Positions 26,760 to 31,817 of a DNA stretch of 32,008 nt are shown here, one piece after another. Origin of the DNA: a virus; the IMG/VR virus record IMGVR_UViG_3300029787_000170, positions 2,449-34,456 of that record; one strand, written 5' to 3'. The notes beneath the pieces were generated by a model. That model ran no database searches. It was not told where the DNA came from and saw only the letters and a program-made list of their open reading frames with translations. The number at the start of each line of letters is the position of its first letter. The first letter of the stretch is position 1. Both the position numbers and the translations under genes were made by a program.

Positions 26760-28235
26760 CTAATAATATTCTTTCGCTCTTCGAGGAAACCAATCTTCTG
26801 GCTCATCCTCACCTTTTAGTGATATAAAACCACCTTGTCTGAATCTCATAATAGCCATCGTCATACTATCACAATAGTCATCATGATCTCCATTTGGAAA
26901 CGAAGCCACTTCTTCAATAACTTCGTCTGCAAACGTTGAATTAGGATACCACACTTTTCCAGATTCGAAAATAGGAGATACCATATGCATCCTCGTAACC
27001 TTATCCAAGTTACCCCCTTTACGTCTGCCAGGACTAAACGTAACCACGGGTAAATTAATTAATCTCATCTCATCCGCTAAAGGTTGACCCGATCCCTTCG
27101 CCTCAATGAGCATCATGTCGGGTTCCCAATATTCGTTTTGCTCTATCGCTATCTCTTTTAATTCTGGAAAGTTCCATCTCCCCTTTGTCGCATCTAATAA
27201 AATAATATGTTGTTCGCCATCTTCCTTTGGCTCAAAAATACCCCATGTGGTTATAGCACTATAGTCGGCTGTTTCTTTTTTACTGTAAGCCGTATCGTAA
27301 CTTTGAATTATATAATCAAGTCTTGGTGTGTCCTCTCGTTCCCATAACTGCCACCAATCACGCTTGACCATGGCAACTTCTTCACTGGTTGGATTCTGCT
27401 GCCATTGTGCATTCCACTTGCCAATGGACAGTGCAGCCTTGACCTTTAACAATTCATCAACATTCCAAAACTCGGGCCATAAAGGTTTATCATTAGGAAG
27501 TATCGCTGGAAACTCAACCACTTCCCATTGATCTGCCATAGAATCTTTTGCTTGATCTGTAATTAATCGTCCCGTGAGGTCTTTCTTTGACCATCTTGTT
27601 TGCACAATAATGATGGTTCCCCCAGGTTGTAATCTTTGTCGTGGTCCAGAAGTGTACCACTCGTATGTATTGTCATACGCTGATGAAGACATAGCGTCTT
27701 GCTCAGAATGTGGATCATCAATGATTAACAAATCTGCACCACGACCTGTCATTGCTGCTCCCACCCCTGCTGCAAAGTATTCCCCGCCACGGCTCGTTTC
27801 CCATCTTCCAGCCGCCTGGCTGTCCTGTTTCAAGTCCGTGTCTGGAAATACATCGCTATAGATAGGATCAGCAATGAGATCACGAACCTTTCTACCAAAT
27901 CTTACCGCAAGTTCCGTGTTCATGGTAGCTTGTATAATTTTTAATTTAGGGTTTCTTCCTAAAAACCACGATGGCATGAGGTACGATGCAAGTTCTGACT
28001 TCGAATGTCTGGGTGGCATATTGATAATTAATCTTTTCAATTGTCCATTGGCAATGGCTTCGAGCTTCTCAGAAATTATTCTGTGATGCCGTCCTTCAAT
28101 AAAACCCTCATAGACATGTTTAGCATAAGCCATAAACTTATCCCTCGCTAATTCACGAGTTGCAAGTTTCTTCTTTTGCTCCTCAAGTCCGAGAAGTTCT
28201 TGTAACACCTCTTTGGGCAGTGCGTCTAAATTCAT
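26760..28235 (-). CDS. terL: Terminase large subunit
   Basis: The 491-residue protein has both enzymatic parts of a DNA-packaging motor. The ATPase has a variant Walker A (MPPRHSKSE, about 73-81) and Walker B (LLIIDDP, about 169-175). The RNase H-like nuclease carries acidic residues in SYDTAYSKKETADYSA (Asp314), LIEAKGSG (Glu378) and DHDDYCDSM (Asp450-456). It cuts concatemeric DNA and drives it through the portal. It starts at ATG 28235 immediately after the stop of a small leader frame, with a weak GGA site. It is separated from the small subunit gene by the plus-strand cassette, which is unusual. Confidence 0.93.
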   Translation of the reverse strand: MNLDALPKEVLQELLGLEEQKKKLATRELARDKFMAYAKHVYEGFIEGRHHRIISEKLEAIANGQLKRLIINMPPRHSKSELASYLMPSWFLGRNPKLKIIQATMNTELAVRFGRKVRDLIADPIYSDVFPDTDLKQDSQAAGRWETSRGGEYFAAGVGAAMTGRGADLLIIDDPHSEQDAMSSSAYDNTYEWYTSGPRQRLQPGGTIIIVQTRWSKKDLTGRLITDQAKDSMADQWEVVEFPAILPNDKPLWPEFWNVDELLKVKAALSIGKWNAQWQQNPTSEEVAMVKRDWWQLWEREDTPRLDYIIQSYDTAYSKKETADYSAITTWGIFEPKEDGEQHIILLDATKGRWNFPELKEIAIEQNEYWEPDMMLIEAKGSGQPLADEMRLINLPVVTFSPGRRKGGNLDKVTRMHMVSPIFESGKVWYPNSTFADEVIEEVASFPNGDHDDYCDSMTMAIMRFRQGGFISLKGEDEPEDWFPRRAKEYY

Positions 28236-28313
28236 TTATCCAAAAAAATAACCACATAAGAATGCGTAACCCCACACTCCTAAAATGATATGTGTCCATT
28301 GTTCATTGTACAT
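28236..28313 (-). CDS. 25-residue hydrophobic leader peptide upstream of terL
   Basis: The frame runs from ATG 28313 to TAA 28236, directly abutting the large terminase ATG (TAAATG). The peptide is polar for seven residues and then hydrophobic (IILGVWGYAFLCGYFFG), like a short membrane peptide. No clear ribosome site is seen before it. It could be a translated coupling leader for terL or a chance frame in the intergenic region. Confidence 0.35.
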   Translation of the reverse strand: MYNEQWTHIILGVWGYAFLCGYFFG

Positions 28314-28377
28314 TTTCAAACGATAATATATTTCAATGAATTTATCAAGCTAACATGACATGACATGGGTACATACG

Positions 28378-28410
28378 ACTATCCCCGTTATATGGGGGGA
28401 GGGGGATAGT
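28378..28410. repeat. 9-bp inverted repeat enclosing a G-rich run
   Basis: ACTATCCCC (28378-28386) is the exact inverse of GGGGATAGT (28402-28410). The 15-base interval contains a run of six G, and a second G run of five enters the right arm. The right arm overlaps the first GTTAACATGTTAAG copy by two bases. As DNA it is a dyad in the divergent region between terL and the plus-strand genes, and as RNA it could form a hairpin. It lacks a clean T tract. The neighbourhood (28314-28626) is otherwise non-coding and also has three tandem ACATG words at 28353-28367. Confidence 0.6.
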
Positions 28411-28490
28411 TAACATGTTAAGTAAATATAGAAATAGAATAAGTTACCCGATAGTTAACATGTTAAGTAATAAATAGTTAACATATTAAG
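28409..28490. promoter_or_regulatory. Three palindromic GTTAACATGTTAAG operator-like sites
   Basis: GTTAACATGTTAAG occurs at 28409-28422 and 28454-28467, and a variant with ATATT at 28477-28490. The ideal GTTAACATGTTAAC is a perfect 14-bp palindrome. The first two share about 20 bp in total including flanks (ATAGTTAAC...AAGTAA). The copies lie upstream of the first plus-strand gene and are 45 and 23 bases apart. Repeated palindromes of this kind usually bind a dimeric regulator, and none is encoded in the window. Confidence 0.75.
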
Positions 28491-28501
28491 TAATAATAAA
28501 G

Positions 28502-28519
28502 TGTTGCAAAAATGTCACA
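28502..28519. promoter_or_regulatory. Degenerate TGTTGCA/TGCAACA dyad
   Basis: TGTTGCAA-AA-ATGTCACA is an imperfect copy of the perfect dyad at 29397-29414, with one mismatch in the left and two in the right arm relative to it. It lies between the palindrome cluster and the first plus-strand gene, the same relative order as upstream of the third gene. Confidence 0.4.
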
Positions 28520-28565
28520 CAATAAAGAAATATATAAAAAAATGCATTTAGTTGTAAAAAAATGC

Positions 28566-28593
28566 TTGTTTTAATTTTCAGATGTGCTACAAA
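28566..28593 (+). promoter_or_regulatory. Possible promoter for the first plus-strand genes
   Basis: TTGTTT (28566-28571) and TACAAA (28588-28593) are separated by 16 bases, each matching four of six consensus positions. They lie 34 bases upstream of the ATG of the 93-residue gene. This is a weak match in AT-rich DNA and should be treated as tentative. Confidence 0.35.
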
Positions 28594-28626
28594 ATAATTA
28601 ACAGAAACAAACAGCGAGGTTAAAAA

Positions 28627-28908
28627 ATGAAACAATTTTTAGAAAATTTTTTTAAGATTAAAAACTTTTCCAAACATGGAGAAAGTGTGGTTGCATGGGC
28701 AGTGTTTCCGTCCACATGGTCGGATGATAGAATTTTTAAGTTTATTGACTGGGTTGACTATCGGTATGATGTTCCAGGTGGTTTTAGAACTGGTATTTAT
28801 AACCATAGTTATTACGGAGGGGTAGGTCGTGAATTTTTTGAAACACCTTTTATTCAAAAATCAACTACCCGTAAATTAGTCAAACAATACCATGGATTGG
28901 ATGTATAA
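28627..28908 (+). CDS. 93-residue cassette protein of unknown function
   Basis: The start is fixed by GAGG seven bases upstream of ATG. The product is rich in aromatic residues (FFKIKNFSKHGESVVAWAVF, DDRIFKFIDWVDYRYDVPGG, NHSYYGGVGREFFETPF) and has no Cys, signal peptide or membrane segment. It looks like a compact globular protein. I do not recognise a family. It is the first gene of the plus-strand cassette and lies after three palindromes and a possible promoter. Two hairpins follow. Its location and AT-rich coding suggest an accessory, possibly early, role. Confidence 0.75.
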   Translation: MKQFLENFFKIKNFSKHGESVVAWAVFPSTWSDDRIFKFIDWVDYRYDVPGGFRTGIYNHSYYGGVGREFFETPFIQKSTTRKLVKQYHGLDV

Positions 28909-28910
28909 AA

Positions 28911-28956
28911 AGTTAGGGAGCTTCGGCTCCCAACTGTCAAGGGATGTGCGTCCCTT
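28911..28956 (+). other. Two tandem hairpins without a T tract between cassette genes 1 and 2
   Basis: GGGAGC-TTCG-GCTCCC (28916-28931) extends by four flanking pairs across a bulged A. It is followed by AAGGGA-TGTGCG-TCCCTT (28939-28956). Neither has a T run, so they are not standard terminators. They may stabilise the mRNA, mark a processing site or act as a weak attenuator between the 93- and 68-residue genes. Confidence 0.7.
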
Positions 28957-29007
28957 CTGATGAGATCAAAAGATCGAAACAGTTAACTTAAAAACGAGGT
29001 ATAAAAA

Positions 29008-29214
29008 ATGAAAATGACAGAAAAAAATAAAAAGACATTACTTGAAGCTCAAGACAAGTTAAATCAAGCACGACAGTTATTTGAGGATTTCAAGTTTGAA
29101 CATTGCGACAGACTTAACCATTATCAAGATTTAGATTTAGATGATGTAATCTATGAACTTGAAATACTCGAAAATAAAATCGATGATCGATTTGAATTAT
29201 TGGAGGATGCGTAA
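29008..29214 (+). CDS. 68-residue acidic helical cassette protein
   Basis: GAGG lies eight bases upstream of the ATG at 29008. The product is almost entirely charged helix (KKTLLEAQDKLNQARQLF, then DVIYELEILENKIDDRFELL) and is likely a coiled coil or a small helical bundle. The acidic end contrasts with the basic virion proteins of the late operon. A half-site GTTAAC of the palindrome lies just upstream at 28982-28987. A strong terminator follows 26 bases after the stop. Acidic, small helical phage proteins can inhibit or mimic nucleic-acid-binding partners, but there is no direct evidence here. Confidence 0.75.
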   Translation: MKMTEKNKKTLLEAQDKLNQARQLFEDFKFEHCDRLNHYQDLDLDDVIYELEILENKIDDRFELLEDA

Positions 29215-29240
29215 TAATAAAAAGAGTTTAACCTCGGAAG

Positions 29241-29267
29241 ATGGGAGCTTCGGCTCCCATTTTTTTT
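29241..29267 (+). terminator. Rho-independent terminator with UUCG loop
   Basis: ATGGGAGC-TTCG-GCTCCCAT forms an 8-bp stem with a stable UUCG loop, followed by a T run through 29267. It closes the first cassette unit. Its GGGAGC-TTCG-GCTCCC core is identical to the first hairpin at 28916-28931. Confidence 0.92.
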
Positions 29268-29270
29268 GAC

Positions 29271-29365
29271 CTACGGTCGCTCCCTACGGTCGCTATAAAC
29301 GGTCATGACCTTCGGTCATGGTTATTGTACGGTCACTATAAGACAAGACGCAAGACGCAAGCAAT
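29271..29365. repeat. ACGGTC iteron-like block with CAAGACG repeats (left copy)
   Basis: CGGTC begins at 29274, 29287, 29300, 29313 and 29330, so the first four are exactly 13 bases apart. Most copies are preceded by A and followed by G or A. A perfect 10-bp palindrome GGTCATGACC overlaps the third, and CATGACC-TTC-GGTCATG forms a small hairpin. Two exact 7-bp tandem copies of CAAGACG and a partial third follow at 29344-29361. The first 23 bases recur exactly at 30901-30923. No gene is visible here. Confidence 0.85.
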
Positions 29366-29366
29366 C

Positions 29367-29438
29367 GTTAACATGTTAAGTTTATTTTTCTTGACTTGTT
29401 GCATAAATGCAACACTTAGCAATCGTTAACATGTTAAG
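29367..29438. promoter_or_regulatory. Two GTTAACATGTTAAG palindromes
   Basis: Exact copies at 29367-29380 and 29425-29438, each preceded by AATC, flank a perfect TGTTGCAT-AA-ATGCAACA dyad at 29397-29414. This intergenic stretch lies between the repeat block and the promoter of the third cassette gene, so they may be operators. Confidence 0.8.
29397..29414. promoter_or_regulatory. Perfect 8-bp dyad TGTTGCAT-AA-ATGCAACA
   Basis: The arms are perfect inverted copies around AA. TTGACT (29391-29396), a -35-like word, lies immediately upstream. Similar TTGCA/TGCAA arms recur at 28502-28519 (imperfect) and 29866-29895. The spacing favours recognition of DNA by a dimeric protein over an RNA hairpin. 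Confidence 0.65.
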
Positions 29439-29457
29439 TTAATAATTTAAAAAAATG

Positions 29458-29500
29458 TTTACTTGCAATTAATTGCGTGATATTGTTATTTATAACAATA
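29458..29500 (+). promoter_or_regulatory. Promoter with overlapping dyads for cassette genes 3-4
   Basis: TTTACT (29458-29463) and TATTGT (29481-29486) are separated by 17 bases, each with four of six consensus matches. A perfect palindrome GCAATTAATTGC (29465-29476) fills the spacer. A second dyad TATTGTTAT-TT-ATAACAATA (29481-29500) covers the -10 and likely start. The placement is that of operators blocking polymerase. Confidence 0.6.
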
Positions 29501-29521
29501 ACAAAAATGAGGATTAAAAAA

Positions 29522-29857
29522 ATGAGTTATAAAAAAATAAATATAGATCAAGAAATAATTAAGGATGGTTTTAATTGCTATTCAATAGAAGATAGGCAAA
29601 AAGCAATTATTGCAATTCTTAAACTTTTTAAAACTTCTAATAATAAAAAAAAGGTTTTAACTGGATTAGAAGAATTTAATAGTTTTATCAATAAAGAAAT
29701 TAAAGCTTTAAAAGATAAAGCAATTAAAAATGATAAAGCTTATTATGAATTTGGAAAAGAATTTTTTGATTATAAAATTGGTATTAAAGAAACTATTCTA
29801 AAAAAACATCCCAAGTATTTTAGAAAAAATAAAAGAAAATATTTTACTTGGAAATAA
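29522..29857 (+). CDS. 111-residue Lys-rich cassette protein of unknown function
   Basis: The preferred start is ATG 29522, nine bases after GAGG. An in-frame ATG at 29507 would place the ribosome site inside its own first codons. The product is rich in Lys, Ile, Asn and Phe (KKINIDQEIIKDGFNCYSIE, RQKAIIAILKLFKTSNNKKK) and is mostly helical, with a basic aromatic end (HPKYFRKNKRKYFTWK). The coding DNA is strikingly AT-rich; the 60 bases at 29521-29580 hold only 11 G/C. I recognise no family. It is likely co-transcribed with the GP88-like gene. Confidence 0.75.
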   Translation: MSYKKINIDQEIIKDGFNCYSIEDRQKAIIAILKLFKTSNNKKKVLTGLEEFNSFINKEIKALKDKAIKNDKAYYEFGKEFFDYKIGIKETILKKHPKYFRKNKRKYFTWK

Positions 29858-29865
29858 TAAATAAA

Positions 29866-29895
29866 ATACTAGTTGCAATAAAATGCAACTAGTAT
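29866..29895. repeat. 12-bp perfect inverted repeat between cassette genes 3 and 4
   Basis: ATACTAGTTGCA (29866-29877) and TGCAACTAGTAT (29884-29895) are exact inverse copies around a six-base loop. There is no T tract, so it is not a standard terminator. It shares the TTGCA/TGCAA arm with the dyad at 29397 and could be an operator for an internal promoter or a regulatory hairpin upstream of the GP88-like gene. Confidence 0.75.
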
Positions 29896-29925
29896 AAACT
29901 TAAATTAAAAATGAGGAATAAAAAA

Positions 29926-30696
29926 ATGAAATTATTATCAATAACACAATCAAATACCAAAGTTAAAAAGTCCATGAAATATTTTGAAGAATATAAATGG
30001 AATGCAATAAAAAATGCCAATGTTAAAAACCCAGATTATGCAAGTCTGTCATTAATGCCAGATTATAAAATTTGTGGTGGGGCAAAATCTGGGGGGTGCA
30101 TGGATTTATGCTTAAAGTCATCTGGTTTTGCCAAGGTTTTTAAATCTGTAAATATTGCTAGACAAAAAAAGACAGAGTTTTTATTAAATGATAAAATTGG
30201 ATTTATAAACCAATTAGATAAAGAGCTATTTAATTTTAATAAAAAATGCATTGCCAATAATAAAACTGGATTTGTAAGATTAAATACTATTAGTGATTAT
30301 CCATTTTATAAAACTGGTTTAATGCAAAGATATCCAAATTTAATTTTTGTTGATTATACAAAAATAGCAAAAAGGTTATTTGAGCAACTACCAGAAAATT
30401 ATTTTTTAATCTTTTCATTTTCTGGACGTTTACAATATTCTAATCAAGTTAAACTAGCATTAAAAACAGACTTTCCTATATCTGTCGTTTTTAAATGTGA
30501 CTTTCCAGAAACATTTTTAGGACGTGAAGTAATTGATGGTGACAAGTCAGACTTAAATAATGTTTTACAATACAATAAAATTATTGGTTTAAAGTTTAAA
30601 GAGATCAACAAAGAAGATTATGAACTATATAAAAATAATGGTTTTATAGTTCATGAAGATCAAATTGAATTTTACAATAATAAATTCATGAATTGA
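29926..30696 (+). CDS. GP88-like protein with Cys cluster
   Basis: ATG 29926 follows GAGG by nine bases. An upstream in-frame ATG at 29911 contains the ribosome site and is less likely. The 256-residue protein has a cysteine cluster (Cys50, Cys58, Cys62: CX7CX3C), then FVRLNTISDYPFY (about 116-128), PNLIFVDYTKIAKRL, YFLIFSFSGRLQYS and VIDGDKSDLNNVL followed by IIGLKFK. This order is what I know from the phage GP88 family (PF17338), whose activity is unknown and which looks like a strand-helix barrel with metal-binding cysteines. A radical-SAM-like or nucleotide-modifying function is speculation. It is AT-rich and ends the cassette. Confidence 0.72.
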   Translation: MKLLSITQSNTKVKKSMKYFEEYKWNAIKNANVKNPDYASLSLMPDYKICGGAKSGGCMDLCLKSSGFAKVFKSVNIARQKKTEFLLNDKIGFINQLDKELFNFNKKCIANNKTGFVRLNTISDYPFYKTGLMQRYPNLIFVDYTKIAKRLFEQLPENYFLIFSFSGRLQYSNQVKLALKTDFPISVVFKCDFPETFLGREVIDGDKSDLNNVLQYNKIIGLKFKEINKEDYELYKNNGFIVHEDQIEFYNNKFMN

Positions 30697-30707
30697 CAAA
30701 GATCAAT

Positions 30708-30719
30708 TTAACATGTTAA
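30708..30719. promoter_or_regulatory. TTAACATGTTAA palindrome downstream of the GP88-like gene
   Basis: The 12-bp core of the cassette palindrome is present, with T rather than G just outside it on the left and T on the right. It lies 11 bases past the stop and just before the terminator hairpins. Confidence 0.6.
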
Positions 30720-30725
30720 TTAATG

Positions 30726-30750
30726 AGTGAGCTAATCGGGATAGCTCACT
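30726..30750 (+). other. Perfect 9-bp hairpin after the GP88-like gene
   Basis: AGTGAGCTA-ATCGGGA-TAGCTCACT lies directly before the terminator hairpin. It has no T tract of its own. It mirrors the two-hairpin layout after the first cassette gene. Confidence 0.75.
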
Positions 30751-30762
30751 TATCAAAATCTG

Positions 30763-30797
30763 AGAGCCTAGAAATCCTCCCTCTAGGCTCTTTTTTT
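30763..30797 (+). terminator. Rho-independent terminator after the GP88-like gene
   Basis: AGAGCCTAG (30763-30771) pairs with CTAGGCTCT (30783-30791) around an 11-base loop and is followed by T residues through 30797. It closes the second plus-strand unit. Confidence 0.9.
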
Positions 30798-30808
30798 ATT
30801 TACAATAT

Positions 30809-30933
30809 AAACGGTCACAAATCGCAAGACGCAAGACAATGGATCATGGGCAAAACACAAACGGTCATAAAACGCAAGACGCAAGATCATGGTTGCCGAT
30901 CTACGGTCGCTCCCTACGGTCGCCAAACGGTCA
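30809..30933. repeat. ACGGTC / CAAGACG repeat block (right copy)
   Basis: CGGTC begins at 30812, 30862, 30904, 30917 and 30928. Two units of about 28 bases, starting AAACGGTCA and ending in CGCAAGACGCAAGA, lie 50 bases apart (30809 and 30859). The 23-bp string at 30901-30923 is identical to 29271-29293. No gene is supported here. The block lies between the terminator and the converging nuclease gene. Confidence 0.85.
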
Positions 30934-30964
30934 CGATCAAAAATTTATTGTCAAGATTTTTTTA

Positions 30965-30978
30965 GTTAACATGTTAAC
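30965..30978. promoter_or_regulatory. Perfect GTTAACATGTTAAC palindrome over the nuclease stop codon
   Basis: This is the only fully symmetric 14-bp copy of the cassette palindrome. Its TTA at 30974-30976 is the stop codon of the minus-strand nuclease gene. It bounds the cassette on its right side. Confidence 0.75.
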
Positions 30979-31351
30979 TGCTGCCGAGAACATTTTCCAA
31001 GATTTTTTTAATATCTTTCGTCTTCAATTGACACTTGGCAAGTAAGCCTTTTTCAGATAATTCAATGGCTTGACCACCTCCAAATAAAAATAGGTCAGAG
31101 GTCAAGAGGTGCTTGACCAAGAAAAAAGACAACCCTTTTGAATGAAATAGTGACATATTCCAAGCAATCTGCGACTTTTGGAGTAGGACACTGTTGTTTT
31201 TTGTTGTTTTTAATTCAATAAAGACAGATCTACCATTATGACACAAAAATGTATCACACATTCCATTTGAAACTCTATTTTCAATTCTTTGATAATGTGT
31301 TTTTGGAGGTAGATTTTTCTTCAATAGCAACCAAAGGTTCTTCTCTGACAT
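30974..31351 (-). CDS. PD-(D/E)XK nuclease (VRR-NUC-like)
   Basis: The 125-residue protein has the core of a small restriction-like nuclease: RIENRVSNGMCDTF (Glu24, Asp33), VFIELKTTK (Glu46, Lys48) and Gln61 in QKSQIAW. These match the GxPD, ExK and Q positions of VRR-NUC domains, with GMCD in place of GVPD. Such proteins can resolve branched DNA or nick it, which fits a position next to the terminase, where concatemers must be trimmed. The start overlaps the small terminase gene by 71 bases. The DNA-junction role is inferred from family and neighbours. Confidence 0.82.
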   Translation of the reverse strand: MSEKNLWLLLKKNLPPKTHYQRIENRVSNGMCDTFLCHNGRSVFIELKTTKNNSVLLQKSQIAWNMSLFHSKGLSFFLVKHLLTSDLFLFGGGQAIELSEKGLLAKCQLKTKDIKKILENVLGSS

Positions 31352-31817
31352 CTTCTACTTTCTTAAAATTACCATCAATAAATGCATGAGGATATTCTGA
31401 CCTAATTTGATTTAATCTTGAAACTATTTCTTCTCGACTAAGTTTATCTAATTGATGGATGTGATTTTGTTCTCTTCTATCAACTGTTAAACCACCTAAT
31501 GCAGATCTTGTTTTCTCTGCATTTATTGATGCAGAAAATTGTCCCTCTTCTTCTGCTTTGTGTGATAGCTCAGATAATCTTTTCAATTGACCAAGTAAAG
31601 TTACTCCATATCTTCTTTCTCTTTCATCTCGAAGTTCTGTTATATATTCAGTAACTAATGGAAAGTCTTTCCCATTTAATAATTTAGATGCATGATGTCT
31701 TGCACTGTCTTCAGTATATCCACTTTTAATTGCACATTGTCGAGCAGAATAAATACCCTCGACATAATGTTTAGCGAATTCTATTTGTCTTGCAGTAAGT
31801 TTTGATTTATTTCCCAT
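31281..31817 (-). CDS. terS: Terminase small subunit
   Basis: The 178-residue protein has an N-terminal helix-turn-helix-type region (LTARQIEFAKHYVEGIYSAR, then QCAIKSGYTEDSARHHASKL, about 7-46) typical of terminase small subunits (PF03592). An oligomerisation helix follows (SINAEKTRSALGGLTVDRRE region). The charged C-terminus overlaps the nuclease gene. It recognises phage DNA and starts packaging with the large subunit. ATG 31817 is preferred to an upstream TTG at 31847, although neither has a strong ribosome site. The repeat array at 31899-31981, just upstream, is a plausible recognition site. Confidence 0.8.
   Translation of the reverse strand: MGNKSKLTARQIEFAKHYVEGIYSARQCAIKSGYTEDSARHHASKLLNGKDFPLVTEYITELRDERERRYGVTLLGQLKRLSELSHKAEEEGQFSASINAEKTRSALGGLTVDRREQNHIHQLDKLSREEIVSRLNQIRSEYPHAFIDGNFKKVEDVREEPLVAIEEKSTSKNTLSKN

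Follow-up and report, generated by a model that had tools for sequence, protein, structure and literature searches.

A hairpin-hammerhead ribozyme element in a variable gene slot beside the large terminase gene of uncultured marine phages

Introduction

Why should the terminase genes of a phage be split by genes that are read from the other strand? The question is raised by a stretch of DNA of 32,008 nucleotides (the window), most of the 34,456-base virus record IMGVR_UViG_3300029787_000170, from a group of uncultured marine phages that are kin of the phages of the ocean bacterium SAR11. As the original prediction described, the minus-strand gene of the large terminase subunit, terL, is followed here by four plus-strand open reading frames (ORFs), namely A93, B68, C111 and a GP88-family gene, after which a small nuclease gene and the gene of the small terminase subunit, terS, again lie on the minus strand. 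That prediction took the four genes, which we call the module and whose place between terL and the nuclease we call the slot, for an accessory module acquired separately from the late operon, with its function unknown. Morons and accessory slots of tailed phages hold dispensable, variable genes that run opposite to the late genes and carry their own terminators. We consider it probable that the interval is an accessory slot whose shared messenger RNA (mRNA) is cut at the joint between a hairpin and a ribozyme, where genes are swapped. The ribozyme was overlooked at the first reading, in which one noted 'hairpin' is in fact half of a composite element containing a hammerhead.

Results

A permissive Rfam scan found a type III hammerhead ribozyme on the plus strand at 28931-28985 (RF00008, 45.0 bits over the full model, E = 7.8e-8), between A93 (93 amino acids (aa), 28627-28908, plus strand) and B68 (68 aa, 29008-29214, plus strand). 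Its core comprises CUGAUGA at 28957-28963, in agreement with the required CUGANGA, GAAA at 28976-28979, C at 28938, the U16.1-A15.1 pair and an H nucleotide at position 17, with three helices around the core and stem III open; cleavage is predicted between C28938 and A28939. For comparison, relatives were fetched with terL (80) and with GP88 (19), and their loci are given L-numbers here. Three of these loci, L013, L014 and L029, carry the same block amid other genes, L029 with compensatory changes in stem I. Covariation backs the structure, in that 97% of helix cells are paired and doubly changed cells number 36 with 8 sequences and 45 with 16 sequences (0 of 500 shuffles). The core is retained in the copies listed, a few of which have the single variants CUGAAGA/CUGAAGC and GUA.

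The ribozyme is one part of a larger element of fixed anatomy. In the window a GC-rich hairpin, GGGAGC-UUCG-GCUCCC (28916-28931, plus strand), abuts the ribozyme, and the start codon of B68 lies 21 nt past the 59-nt ribozyme unit. The same arrangement is found in 22 of 22 copies, where the upstream stop codon stands 17-31 nt ahead of the unit, a GC-rich hairpin (its loop often UUCG or GAAA) ends 2-3 nt inside the unit, and an ATG follows 19-23 nt past it. When 30-nt segments around 37 hammerheads, many of them from unrelated viral contigs, were folded, the mean energy was -11.6 kcal/mol at the abutting position versus -0.8 to -3.5 kcal/mol at other offsets, with a few individual copies (GC-rich or hairpin-less) no better than their own shuffles. 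Since hammerheads from many other viral contigs are likewise fused to a hairpin, the design may be a general one that has been overlooked. Other viral contigs share hairpins of the form GTGGTGTCTTCAAAGACACCAT. Three or more hammerheads stand in a row in L154, L181, L182 and L168, and in the first three of these loci the serial hammerheads mostly have the abutting hairpin, as if freeing each gene.

The element is also the place where similarity between relatives begins and ends. The window, L013 and L014 share ~97-100% of their bases from -20 to +60/+80 relative to the ribozyme start, and 5-65% outside; this island corresponds to an element of ~100 bp with differing genes on its flanks, where identity falls to background. 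Identity breaks at the element in L098/L303 and L097/L301 as well. Because a block of hairpin, ribozyme and ribosome site of this size would work between any two genes, we propose that it is the point of gene exchange of the slot. A sharp island of identity between unrelated genes might also be left by a small mobile or selfish intergenic insert, whose ribozyme would serve its own spread and not the processing of phage mRNA, and such an insert is also favoured by the many unrelated viral contigs that carry a hairpin paired with a hammerhead, some of them in several copies. However, the element is without repeats or genes of its own, its spacing to the stop and start codons is fixed, and within the lineage it is restricted to one syntenic place, so that we see only a slim chance for this explanation.

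That restriction is evident from its distribution. A multi-locus Rfam scan run with filters on ten close loci reported no hammerhead though three of them hold the element, a loss caused by the filters, and we built our own model from 8 copies. Of the 11 strong matches that this model gave in 1.01 Mb, three (L094, L105 and L106) fall outside the training set. Ten lie in terL slots, which make up 17.6% of that sequence, and the 11th is in L013, a contig without terL but with the gene order of the slot. Another 0.77 Mb, made up of further terL relatives and other loci, yielded 9 more hammerheads, all in slots, and L139 and L185, from a scan for the core pattern, bring the total to 22. Every copy whose place could be determined is found at 0.5-1.2 kb from terL, in the orientation opposite to that of terL. 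GC-rich relatives also carry the hammerhead; of the 109 distinct slots for which 1.3 kb or more of sequence upstream of terL is available, 18, or about one in six, have it (3 of 51 AT-rich and 15 of 58 GC-richer slots). No hammerhead was found around terL or GP88 in the partial records of HTVC023P, HTVC027P, 023Pt_psg01, DSL-LC04, CRP-235, HTVC115P and HMO-2011. A BLAST search of phage records with the window element returned 120 records, none covering most of the element (E 0.3-3 in the rows listed), and a search of phage records with the element of a GC-rich slot gave no match.

The slot itself is bordered by terL on the left (26760-28235, minus strand; PF17289, phrog_38, E = 2e-106) and on the right by the small, weakly Holliday-junction-resolvase-like nuclease gene (30974-31351, minus strand; phrog_2165), beyond which lies terS (31281-31814, minus strand; PF03592, phrog_51). 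In nearly all relatives examined the interval from terS and nuclease to terL is occupied, and 50 of the 58 complete intervals, with a median length of 2.4 kb, code mainly opposite to terL. Present in nearly all relatives and reversed in most, the slot is, as judged by comparing their sequences, an old standing site with gene turnover and not a lone insertion. Replacement of the module by different genes in related phages had been anticipated, and it was found to proceed gene by gene, most genes being exchanged even at 95-98% terL identity while GP88 and the intergenic blocks are retained. B68, with relatives in L014, L028 and L058, and C111 (111 aa, 29522-29857, plus strand), whose family has no known function and is confined to these slots, recur scattered among the relatives; A93 occurs in the window only, with no relative in the loci of the terL and GP88 relatives compared nor by BLAST against phage records.

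The first slot genes are swapped in relatives for a homologue of gp82 of phage L5, for the antirestriction protein ArdC and for others. In L029 the first slot gene (L029:2414-3316) encodes ArdC (ArdcN and MPTase-PolyVal domains; PF08401 and PF18818, phrog_7245) and stands directly upstream of the hammerhead. The slot genes are co-directional with the region beyond terS, in which relatives carry genes that read like replication genes, and we therefore infer early expression of the slot genes. The ArdC and L5-gp82 homologues of neighbouring slots suggest a narrower reading of the function that had been left as unknown, namely that these are early or takeover genes and genes of counter-defence. 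In the early regions of three relatives (L110:5016-6125, L111:3425-4588 and L112:3160-4323) there is a gene that resembles, as read by eye, a C5-cytosine DNA methyltransferase.

Several variants of the layout were seen. The nuclease is 203 bases from terL in L022, L023 and L024, with a GP88 cassette between terS and nuclease. In L061 and L062 terS is downstream of the portal gene, not upstream of the nuclease, and L062 keeps the palindromes described below and a divergent GP88. About 70 bases (31281-31351) are shared by nuclease and terS, which read them in different frames, an overlap retained in many relatives. A search of the window for tRNA genes found none.

Separate acquisition had been proposed partly on base composition, from hand counts of 11 and 10 G/C in 29521-29580 and 29641-29700 against 25 in 27001-27060, all of which are exactly right. 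The GC fraction of the slot is 0.289, compared with 0.382 for positions 1-28235 and 0.421 for terL, and reaches its extreme in C111 (0.188, or 0.19 as rounded; 0.08 at third codon positions, GC3). These figures, together with the opposite strand, the module's own terminators and the lack of relatives of A93, would suit a recent foreign cassette of the classic moron kind, in which a self-contained, AT-rich block from another genome entered a single time between neighbouring late genes. Yet every complete slot of the clade with the palindrome has a GC fraction of 0.28-0.31 against 0.40-0.43 for terL, and in three relatives the early region on the far side of terS has 0.27-0.44 per kb, mostly 0.30-0.37; in the GC-rich relatives the slot has no GC drop. 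Low GC is thus no pointer to foreign origin, but a trait of the slot and close to the value of the early region, and a composition foreign to the lineage, as expected of an accessory cassette, was not found. Occupancy of the slot across the lineage, GP88 near terL even at 52-60% terL identity, and the replacement of single genes while GP88 and the intergenic blocks stay likewise argue against a single recent insertion, which we regard as improbable. What stands of the original prediction is an accessory, variable module; its separate acquisition finds no support in composition.

The persistent resident of the slot is the GP88-family gene (256 aa, 29926-30696, plus strand; PF17338, 84.6 bits with a cut-off of 24.4; phrog_1617), which is there or near terL even at the terL distances just given, and which in L062 is replaced at the same place by a 43%-identical homologue. 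Three cysteines, C50, C58 and C62, are invariant, with the spacing CX7CX3C in the window protein instead of the radical SAM motif CX3CX2C. AlphaFold2 with 10 close sequences gave an unusable model (pLDDT 44), and a rerun with 24 diverse sequences reached pLDDT 84. The top 14 VIA structural rows for this model are all radical SAM enzymes, but with Z of merely 4.7-5.8; Foldseek gave no match in the PDB below E 0.001 and a sequence search of the PDB no match. GP88 is at most a possible radical-SAM-like protein by this model.

The claim that the module has its own operators and terminators holds, with operator function itself on the inferred side. The palindrome TTAACATGTTAA, with GTTAACATGTTAAC as candidate protein-binding target, is a putative operator present in six exact copies and one with a single mismatch; the 34.5-kb record has all of these between 28410 and 30977 and none in the rest (shuffles: mean 0.49, maximum 2). 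Three copies (28410-28421, 28455-28466 and, with the mismatch, 28478-28489) lie in the intergenic region from which terL and the module diverge (28236-28626), in which the terL promoter and the first module promoter would have to sit; the others are at 29368-29379, 29426-29437, 30708-30719 and 30966-30977, the last overlapping the nuclease stop codon. The palindrome is limited to one sub-clade, with 4-10 copies per complete slot and 0-2 outside on contigs of 21-28 kb, and in L111 and L112 it also stands directly ahead of the first early genes. Lineage-specific palindromes recurring three or more times were not found in other clades. An XRE-like helix-turn-helix gene near an early-region palindrome (L113:476-889) was considered as palindrome binder and dropped, this gene being present, among the loci compared, only in L113. 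Intrinsic terminators, each followed by a U run, end the A93-B68 transcript (29237-29268, plus strand, -18.3 kcal/mol) and the C111-GP88 transcript (30762-30798, plus strand, -16.6 kcal/mol). Two GC-richer intergenic blocks (29268-29306 with 29343-29361, and 30804-30936) repeat CTACGGTCGCTCCCTACGGTCGC, ACGGTCA and AAGACGCAAGACGCAAG; the first is kept between relatives with differing neighbour genes, and no function was found for either block.

Discussion

We propose the following scenario for the slot, which would be a standing accessory site of early-strand genes set against the direction of the late operon. Two transcripts, A93-B68 and C111-GP88, would be made from it, both flanked by copies of the putative operator. 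The A93-B68 RNA would then cut itself at 28938/28939 through the intercistronic hammerhead, leaving the A93 mRNA with a GC-rich hairpin close to a 2',3'-cyclic-phosphate 3' end and the B68 mRNA with a 5'-hydroxyl and a 69-nt leader beginning at the stem I hairpin. A 5'-hydroxyl and a 3' hairpin are ends that influence mRNA stability. Self-cleavage in the cell might in this way allow the A93 and B68 messages to differ in stability and dose despite their common promoter. Going further, the composite block could perhaps act as a universal joint, conferring independence at the mRNA level and permitting swaps of accessory (anti-defence) genes without rebuilding of promoters and terminators; we offer this extension tentatively, and hold it for less probable than the slot and the cut at the joint.

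The native fold of the whole element and an alternative one, in which GUU of the upstream strand pairs with AAC of stem III, have equal energies of -27.1 kcal/mol. After cleavage this pairing would extend the hairpin, perhaps rendering the reaction irreversible. With one of the two folds disrupting stem III, the ribozyme might instead be a sensor of conditions, in which extension of the hairpin competes with stem III so that salt, temperature or the state of the host switches the downstream gene, and PMC3088659 discusses a salt-dependent role for a hammerhead that lies 13 nt ahead of a start codon in a halovirus. Against a sensor, there is no ligand domain, the alternative pairing is just three pairs and known from the window copy, and nearly every copy has the start codon at a fixed spacing, irrespective of which gene it opens. 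We accordingly give the sensor little credence.

Certain observations count against processing at the joint as we propose it, or against parts of it. The window copy at 45 bits falls just below the Rfam gathering score of 48.5, which is a curation cut-off and not a structural one. L029 is without the usual 10.1-11.1 pair, and the ATG at +23 in L139 opens only two codons, the next candidate start being 28 nt after the unit. The hammerhead is missing from most close relatives, as the 3 of 51 AT-rich slots carrying one indicate, so that the ribozyme must be dispensable. The loci compared yielded no regulator that would go with the palindrome. Matches resembling promoters are no more frequent than chance would give, for which reason promoters of the module's own are only presumed.

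Phage and prophage hammerheads are known, and Perreault et al. (2011; PMC3088659) describe intergenic ones, some beside the antirestriction gene ardA, with processing of transcripts as the proposed role. The element described here is like these (RF00008) in its type III fold and core, in being intergenic and in flanking single genes or short blocks. It differs from the hammerheads in that paper by forming a fixed composite of hairpin, ribozyme and ribosome site at one syntenic place by terL, with exchange boundaries; the main text, as searched, has no mention of the abutting hairpin. A limited literature search gave no report of the terL-side location or of the composite element. Thus the fixed element, its place and the exchange boundary appear to be new.

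Like morons, the slot has dispensable, variable, opposite-strand genes with their own terminators; unlike them, it is permanently occupied, multi-gene, lineage-wide and of a composition normal for the clade, with a ribozyme joint and a resident GP88. The HTVC023P-type pelagiphages, with isolates HTVC023P and HTVC027P 52-59% identical in terL, similarly have genes of unknown function between terS and terL, among them GP88 in HTVC023P. In HTVC023P, however, the interval genes, GP88 included, are on the terL strand, and the stretches searched have no hammerhead.

A review (PMC6155905) treats the role of prokaryotic hammerheads as an open question and points to their persistent link with bacteriophage genomes. 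One genomic place with many copies, varied neighbours and near-invariant spacing turns this question into a testable proposal, that of intercistronic processing which would fix both new mRNA ends. Irrespective of the details, the opposite-strand position beside terL may serve as a map coordinate by which to look, in uncultured marine phages, for new genes of takeover and counter-defence.

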